From positions 1-64,000 of the forward strand of contig CALUPW010000010.1 of assembly GCA_944322785.1 (NCBI GenBank): 64,000 nucleotides of DNA, given 5' to 3'. Made by a program: the position numbers and the translations under genes. The notes beneath the pieces were generated by a model. It made no database searches, was not told where the DNA came from, and worked only from the letters and a program-made list of their open reading frames with translations. The DNA is from Candidatus Gastranaerophilales bacterium (GTDB lineage: Bacteria > Cyanobacteriota > Vampirovibrionia > Gastranaerophilales > Gastranaerophilaceae). Shown one piece after another: positions 10,853 through 11,622 of this stretch; positions within the stretch are counted from its first letter, which is position 1, and every line of letters begins with the position of its first letter.

Positions 10853-11097
10853 GAATTATAGGATTAATATAGATCCCATAAATATTGATTTGACATTAAG
10901 GATTTTAGTGTTAATATTTTAGTTGTGTTTATCGGTTAAACACAATTTGATTTACACAGATTGAAATACAAAACCGTTTAAAAGATTTTAGTCTGCGTAG
11001 AGCTATTGAAAACTTAATATCGGGATGTAGCACTCTGCCGAACAAAACAATTGAGTATTGTTTTGTGAGAGGTTGGGAGCGCCATCCATTTCATCAT
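10853..11097 (+). promoter_or_regulatory. promoter and leader of tRNA-Pro(CGG)
   Basis: TTGACA at 10890-10895, a 16-base spacer and TAATAT at 10912-10917 form a good promoter. A hairpin TTGTGTTTA / TAAACACAA lies at 10923-10945, at the expected transcript start. Between 11020 and 11085 sits the tRNA-like structured element described separately. No protein-coding gene is visible. Confidence 0.6.
11021..11085 (+). ncRNA. tRNA-like structured element, copy A
   Basis: The element starts with CGGGATGTAGC, identical to the 5' end of the tRNA-Pro(CGG) that follows. It then holds a hairpin: CTCT/AGAG lower stem, an asymmetric GCCGA/G internal loop, a 10-bp upper stem (ACAAAACAAT/ATTGTTTTGT) and the pentaloop TGAGT. 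CATCC near 11082 can pair back to GGATG, giving a tRNA-acceptor-like closing stem. Copies B and C at 11338 and 11442 share the loop, internal loop and lower stem, with four compensatory changes in the upper stem. I know no named RNA family with this form. Confidence 0.6.
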
Positions 11098-11171
11098 CGG
11101 GATGTAGCGCAGCTTGGTAGCGCACCGTGTTCGGGTCGCGGGGGCCGCAGGTTCAAATCCTGTCATCCCGA
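11098..11171 (+). tRNA. tRNA-Pro (anticodon CGG)
   Basis: The acceptor stem CGGGATG/CATCCCG is perfect. The D arm is GCGC...GCGC, the anticodon stem CCGTG/CGCGG with loop TTCGGGT (anticodon CGG, G37), and the T arm GCAGG-TTCAAAT-CCTGT. The discriminator is A and CCA is not encoded. A T-run directly after the gene (ATTTTTTAA) may terminate transcription. Confidence 0.93.
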
Positions 11172-11337
11172 TTTTTTAATTGGAAACAAAATAGTTCCTG
11201 TATTAAAAAAAAATTTCTGTTGAAACAGGAAGTGATAATTGATATCAGGAACTTAATCGGCACAGCGCAGGGATTCCAAATTTTGATTAATATATAAACT
11301 AATAAGTCGGACCTTGCGACAACTTAATATTCTTTTT

Positions 11338-11420
11338 CGGGACGTGGCACTCTGCCGAGAAAAATGATTAAGTATCATTTTTCGAGAGGATTGGTAGCGT
11401 AGCTGCCAAGCTGCGATCCG
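11338..11420 (+). ncRNA. tRNA-like three-way-junction element, copy B
   Basis: P1 pairs CGGGACGTGGC with GCTGCGATCCG (10 of 11 positions, with G-U pairs). P2 is CTCT/AGAG, then the GCCGA/G internal loop, a 10-bp stem (GAAAAATGAT/ATCATTTTTC) and loop TAAGT. P3 is TTGGTAGC/GCTGCCAA with loop GTA. Together they form a compact three-way junction. The 5' strand of P1 copies the tRNA-Pro 5' end. The 3' side is complementary to the D arm of the tRNA downstream. Confidence 0.6.
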
Positions 11421-11441
11421 TGACAACTTAATATTCTTTTT

Positions 11442-11524
11442 CGGGACGTGGCACTCTGCCGAGAAAAATGATTAAGTATCATTTTTCGAGAGGATTGGTA
11501 GCGTAGCTGCCAAGCTGCGATCCG
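11442..11524 (+). ncRNA. tRNA-like three-way-junction element, copy C
   Basis: Identical in sequence and predicted fold to copy B at 11338-11420. It lies directly before the tRNA-Pro(GGG) gene, separated only by the 20-base T-rich spacer. Confidence 0.6.
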
Positions 11525-11545
11525 TGACAACTTAATATTCTTTTT

Positions 11546-11622
11546 CGGGACGTGGCGCAGCTTGGTAGCGTGCTACCTTGGGGTGGTAGAGGTCGCAGGT
11601 TCAAATCCTGTCGTTCCGACCA
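11546..11622 (+). tRNA. tRNA-Pro (anticodon GGG), CCA encoded
   Basis: The acceptor stem is CGGGACG/CGTTCCG with one G-U pair. The D arm is GCGC...GCGT, the anticodon stem CTACC/GGTAG with loop TTGGGGT (anticodon GGG), and the T arm GCAGG-TTCAAAT-CCTGT. ACCA follows the stem. A terminator-like inverted repeat GACTTGGCGAATC...GTGAGTC and T-run follow at about 11630-11667. Confidence 0.93.

Follow-up and report, generated by a model that had tools for sequence, protein, structure and literature searches.

Nostoc genomes reportedly carry SDR elements, which Elhai et al. in 2008 are said to have described as very small dispersed hairpins with compensatory changes, nested in other repeats, and whose published families are reportedly 21 to 27 nt long. 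In REP/REPIN-RAYT systems, non-autonomous short palindromic extragenic repeats occur in tandem clusters, with REPINs consisting of inverted REP doublets (PMC3116915). Rickettsia palindromic elements (RPEs) are palindromic repeats of 105 to 146 bp that lie within RNA genes (tmRNA, RNase P RNA) and are able to encode in-frame peptides, and MITEs such as RUP, ERIC and YPAL are small non-coding repeats with both filled and empty sites (both PMC2229807). For SDR5 of Nostoc, insertion into HIP1 is described as always occurring at one position (PMC4390886).

Here we describe a hairpin of 40 nt, termed H, first seen beside two tRNA-Pro genes in a window of 64,000 nt (contig CALUPW010000010.1, positions 1 to 64,000) of a Candidatus Gastranaerophilales bacterium. 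In our analysis H appeared to behave most like the Nostoc SDR elements, and loosely like REPs or RPEs, though we do not claim membership in any of these groups. Like SDR elements, H is small, dispersed, nested in other repeats and subject to compensatory changes; unlike them, it is ~40 nt long with another sequence and architecture. It differs further in its preference for tRNA arms, in the replacement of ~5 nt and in having been found in Gastranaerophilales alone. With REPs it shares short palindromic extragenic form, tandem clusters and lack of autonomy, but H occurs singly or in direct tandem and not as inverted doublets, and no RAYT (Y1_Tnp) gene was present in its own genome (G000) or in the high-copy genomes G007, G010 and G032. 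RPEs resemble H as palindromic repeats of RNA genes, whereas H is far from their length at 40 nt and resides in partial tRNA copies. As with MITEs, filled and empty sites were found for this small non-coding repeat, but for H alone neither terminal-repeat ends nor a target-site duplication was found, and its target instead loses 4 to 7 nt and gains 1 to 4 filler nt. We noticed no autonomous relative with the same ends as H among the about 290 loci read. The literature covered by our search, which left most subscription journals outside its scope, held no earlier description of H.

The tRNA-Pro locus

Rfam and ARAGORN identified two intact genes, both on the plus strand, as the sole tRNAs of the window: tRNA-Pro(CGG) at 11098-11171 (RF00005, 60 bits) and tRNA-Pro(GGG) at 11546-11619 (RF00005, 59.8 bits). 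One unit (A) preceded the former and two identical 104-nt units (B and C) preceded the latter, all on the same strand. Units in the window ran from a leader through an 11-nt copy of the tRNA 5' end and the 40-nt hairpin H to a tail in which the tRNA sequence was taken up again after a gap of ~5 nt. Upstream of unit A lay the boxA-like leader motif TTGAAAACTTAATAT (11006-11020); in relatives without unit A, the corresponding leader adjoined the tRNA directly at orthologous loci. Unit A itself began with CGGGATGTAGC (11021-11031), which repeats nt 1-11 of the tRNA-Pro(CGG) that starts at 11098, followed by H (11032-11071) as ACTCTGCCGA-ACAAAACAAT-TGAGT-ATTGTTTTGT-GAGAG, assigned from covariation and a covariance-model match of 72.5 bits at 11030-11073. 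In its tail (11072-11097), junction analysis placed the tRNA-like G-TTGGGAGCGC, with GCAGC missing, ahead of a short spacer to the tRNA; the same tail and spacer were also found before tRNA-Pro(TGG) on contig C3.

Units B (11318-11421) and C (11422-11525) were exact direct repeats, with model matches at 11347-11390 (71.2 bits) and 11451-11494, respectively. Each comprised a leader copy (11318-11337 and 11422-11441), a tRNA 5' copy (11338-11348 and 11442-11452), H (11349-11388 and 11453-11492) and a tail (11389-11421, holding a second hairpin, and 11493-11525). A third leader copy, GACAACTTAATATTCTTTTT (11526-11545), stood directly 5' of tRNA-Pro(GGG). More widely, a recurrent leader motif, TTGAMAAYTDAATA, was observed ~5 to 25 nt 5' of many tRNAs and units, in the window (11006-11020 and 11318-11337) and in relatives, and is reminiscent of the boxA-like motif in rRNA leaders.

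An earlier note on this DNA had read the locus as three copies of a tRNA-like RNA of about 84 nt. The copies it listed, starting at 11021 (A), 11338 (B) and 11442 (C), were indeed present, each with CGGGAYGTRGC, the CTCT/AGAG stem, the GCCGA/G loop and the TRAGT loop, and the four pairs by which A differs from B and C in the 10-bp upper stem were all compensated. Because B equals C, however, the window alone yields two independent copies. CGGGAYGTRGC proved to be the 5' end of the adjoining tRNA-Pro and not part of the element; elsewhere, this segment matched whichever tRNA was near. The complete three-way junction assigned to B and C was recovered for B (-32.6 kcal/mol, z -3.8), but A folded as a single long interrupted hairpin (-27 kcal/mol, z -3.5), and a closing stem was clear at some loci only. 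In an own-versus-swapped duplex test of 79 units, the closing stem formed by the tRNA-derived 5' part had a median rank of 0.36 and was best in Leu-GAG/CAG, Met and some Pro. The tRNA-like three-way junction was therefore abandoned as the conserved unit in favor of the 40-nt hairpin H.

The failure to match a known RNA family held up: in Rfam 15, which includes the T-box, no family reached its gathering score and none matched over H at E<=10, so a T-box or other known RNA was rejected. RF00005 matched the two real tRNA-Pro genes and no unit, even at E<=10.

Fold and covariation of H

As a single strand, H folds as A-CUCU-GCCGA-(~10 bp)-URAGU-(~10 bp)-G-AGAG. Across 54 distinct 40-mers there was practically no variation in the lower stem CTCT/AGAG or in the GCCGA/G internal loop, while nine of the 10 pairs of the always-paired upper stem were altered on both sides. 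The covariation score was 0.405, compared with 0.128 after shuffling and at most 0.110 for slid structures. Paired cells amounted to 99.7% versus 44 to 63% with partners slid, the former value being inflated by selection of rows for a paired upper stem, which affects the change counts and the slid control less. When the 5' ten-mer served as the sole anchor of a search, 189 of the 201 distinct cases retrieved also had the 3' motif, mostly with 9 to 11 contiguous pairs. Where no paired stem was required beforehand and only a loose mismatch limit applied, G-U outnumbered A-C by 20 to 4, and tandem GA/AG pairs recurred in a subset of copies. Together these biases indicate a strand-specific fold, belonging to this strand either as RNA or as single-stranded DNA. 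The tip was usually TRAGT, with TAAAT and CCGGT-type tips additionally present in G018.

K-turns consist of a CUC/GAG stem, a bulge, tandem GA/GA pairs and a second stem. By sequence alone, the pattern CUC-UGCC-GA.../...GA-GAG of H resembles such a motif, with an apparent C-stem, bulge, tandem GA/AG variant and NC-stem, differing in a bulge of four nucleotides and not three.

The central proposal of the earlier note, a conserved folded element with real covariation, is thus sustained, with covariation above its controls and, as described below, homologs linked to tRNA genes; neither of the two outcomes that the note had named as refuting it came about. Covariation is not by itself proof of RNA function, since hairpin stems can also stay paired through template switching (PMC8794818).

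Distribution and linkage to tRNA genes

Copies of H were sought with blastn and with a covariance model based on eight of them. The model found 12 copies in G000 and hundreds in relatives, many of them linked to tRNAs. Eleven of the 12 had a tRNA no more than 600 nt away, a placement expected for 2.6% (42 tRNAs, 1.95 Mb; p about 4e-17), their neighbors being Pro (three genes), Ile, Val, Leu-GAG and Leu-TAG, plus Leu-CAA on the opposite strand. Copies adjacent to a tRNA numbered 13 of 49 in G007 and seven of 50 in G018. H occurred in 213 of 241 sampled genomes of Ca. Gastranaerophilales, at one to 59 copies per genome, and in a phylum-wide sample of 386 genomes none was found outside this order (164 of 164 positives inside). 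Only a few genomes of the family (G021, G151, G163) were free of H. In a named collection, matches came mainly from Ca. Gastranaerophilales/Melainabacteria and unlabeled gut MAGs. Public records labeled Heliobacteriaceae, Clostridiaceae or Clostridia also held H (L075, L078, L122, L126) and may be mislabeled Gastranaerophilales MAGs. A phage, plasmid or viral origin was rejected, as those collections, viral contigs included, gave no H match at the sensitivities used.

A tRNA or tmRNA, of many types overall, lay no more than 500 nt from 106 of the 178 distinct H contexts; of the 106, 86 were upstream on the same strand and 14 on the opposite strand. H at tRNAs sat inside a partial tRNA copy, derived from the 5' half when on the same strand and from the 3' end (T-arm) when on the opposite one, and the intact tRNA was retained beside the interrupted copy. 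An intron within a tRNA was rejected, since the same-strand units read have no tRNA 3' half and an intact tRNA follows.

Linkage of this strength, mainly upstream on the same strand, would suit a cis-acting RNA of tRNA leaders: a co-transcribed, K-turn-like, protein-bound structure controlling processing, antitermination or tRNA dosage, with the remaining copies as escapees. RNA-type covariation with G-U over A-C and tandem GA pairs, recurrence of the leader motif before many units and tRNAs, and long persistence at tRNA-Ile, where H was maintained across species, also speak for it. Of 41 tRNAs surveyed in G000, however, 13 had end copies and 28 had none, and orthologous tRNA-Pro genes exist without units. 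The occurrence of H in repeats remote from any tRNA and, at several loci, in the opposite orientation to the tRNA likewise makes a poor fit to a dedicated tRNA-leader RNA, the closing stem is not general, and other hairpin types occupy the same slot. We therefore regard a cis-acting role as unlikely.

Of the 13 tRNAs with end copies, ten had them upstream as 5' copies, Leu-CAA and Gly-TCC had 3' copies only, and Val-GAC showed both signals. Most of these copies held H, with other fillings at Leu-CAG, Thr-CGT, Phe and Gly, so the general feature is the tRNA-end copy, which H fills most commonly. A second hairpin type, ACTCC-GC..TRAGT..GAA-GGAGG, was seen in the unit slot of tRNA-Val and tRNA-Pro (L012, G000:C7:33000-34300; L186; L153), alternating with H in a tandem array upstream of tRNA-Val(GAC). 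Upstream of tRNA-Leu(CAG) (L287, G000:C13:31200-32100) lay two units of ~150 nt with another TRAGT hairpin, GGAAATGATTAAGTATCATTTCC, without the CTCT/GCCGA base. Unrelated fillings occurred in partial end copies of tRNA-Thr CGT (L262), tRNA-Phe (L268) and tRNA-Gly TCC (L277), the last being a downstream copy that repeats the tRNA 3' end.

Repeat tips

Many H copies away from tRNAs occupied the tips of other palindromic repeats, as in CATCCTGAGC-H-GCGAAGGATC compared with the H-free CATCCTGAGCAAAGCGAAGGATC, and within a repeat family one member could contain H and another a short loop. An exact-anchor search for empty sites returned only three cases because the host repeats diverge. Composite repeats with H accounted for much of the copy number in G007 and G018. 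In G018 (L241-L260), H with TAAAT and CCGGT tips lay within another dispersed repeat of high copy number, tctagcattttgcg-H-gtagaccccatg. In G007 (L204, L223 and similar), widespread CATYCTGAG...CGAAGRATC palindromic repeats had tips that vary freely yet are self-complementary, which suggests tip turnover.

Such palindromic tip variation, the capacity of template switching to maintain paired stems (PMC8794818) and the other fillings of tRNA-end copies could be accommodated by passive hairpin evolution, in which slippage duplicates tRNA ends, template switching makes and keeps paired tips, and recombination exchanges them, neither a mobile element nor selection on the fold being involved. Across the order and in unrelated contexts, however, the lower stem and GCCGA/G loop hardly vary, which requires a common source sequence; moreover, the fold is strand-specific and the junctions follow a common target rule. 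We consider a purely passive origin quite improbable. Neither a cis-RNA role nor template switching easily explains why contexts that are unrelated have both a constant base motif and a shared junction rule.

Junctions and locus dynamics

For the junction analysis, each unit was compared with its own tRNA, and 60 of 80 same-strand units were alignable. The left junction of H was sharp, and 4 to 7 nt of the target were replaced in 58 of the 60 units, many of which are related by descent, so that the rule rests on far fewer independent events. Replaced same-strand segments nearly all began with GNA (GCAGC, GTAGC, GCAGTT, GCACC, GGAAT and similar), and H was followed by 1 to 4 filler nt, usually starting with G. 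Opposite-strand copies mostly replaced GGANTY-like T-arm segments, including that of tmRNA. Unit positions in the tRNA (nt 8, 11-12, 17-20, 26-27, plus the T-arm) were unlike those of a single-target integrase. A tyrosine-integrase att site, considered since insertion restores the tRNA end, was set aside on the reasoning that the units are ~80 to 150 nt, gene-free and at varied tRNA positions.

Within the genus, orthologous tRNA-Pro loci were filled, empty or multiplied; in other species (G001, G002, G009, G011) the same tRNA-Pro pair carried A- and B-type units, a B-type unit only, an alternative hairpin or nothing. At empty loci the leader adjoined the tRNA, and at filled loci that leader sat upstream of the unit, from which it follows that the inserted segment ends with a fresh tRNA 5'-end copy. 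Unit A had identical tail and spacer but different upstream leaders before tRNA-Pro(CGG) and tRNA-Pro(TGG), a pattern that copying of the segment from gene to gene would produce.

H as a probable mobile element

We conclude that H is probably a miniature non-coding mobile foldback element of ~40 nt, apparently among the smallest mobile DNA elements and, in the genomes sampled, restricted to Ca. Gastranaerophilales. It would spread by insertion into hairpin-forming targets, namely the 5' side of the tRNA D-arm and anticodon arm, the T-arm on the opposite strand and repeat tips, with the target probably recognized as folded single-stranded DNA or RNA. At tRNA genes, only events that duplicate the tRNA end (leader and 5' half) would survive, H being tolerated there presumably because a complete tRNA end is regenerated. 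Tandem duplication may then raise the number of units, as may copying from one tRNA gene to another with the same 5' end. Against mobility count the lack of Y1 transposase in G000, G007, G010 and G032 and of RVT_1 in G010, G018 and G032; in addition, part of the high copy number may reflect composite repeats spreading H passively, and near-ubiquity in one family together with tRNA-Ile persistence could signify a useful RNA.

Y1 transposase and reverse transcriptase were both rejected as mobilizers, as co-occurrence does not match copy number: Y1 genes were found in 15 of 59 relatives, and neither their presence nor that of the RVT_1 family, absent from G010, G018 and G032, tracked the number of H copies. 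H might still descend from a REP/RAYT or IS200-type (Y1) system, as a dead, non-autonomous remnant after loss of the transposase in most genomes, given its REP-like size, hairpin form, dispersal and clustering, the Y1 genes in relatives and the single Y1 gene ~0.3 kb from an H copy in G018. Set against this are the lack of correspondence between Y1 presence and H copy number and the fact that we noticed no gene-carrying element flanked by H in the loci read, and we judge such descent very unlikely.

Mobile units so small are barely documented. In the H family, filled sites number in the hundreds, orthologous sites without H are available, the junction rule can be defined and the target, tRNA arms, is near-universal, which makes the mechanism testable. 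It also carries a warning, in that covarying "structured RNAs" beside tRNA genes can be mobile hairpins within tRNA fragments. More speculatively, and with some doubt on our part, H might represent a new minimal class of mobile element, a 40-nt fold recognized as RNA or single-stranded DNA and inserted site-specifically into tRNA arms and hairpin tips with loss of a GNA-starting ~5-mer, possibly via tRNA or RNA intermediates and without a known transposase, that would be reshaping tRNA leaders across the order.
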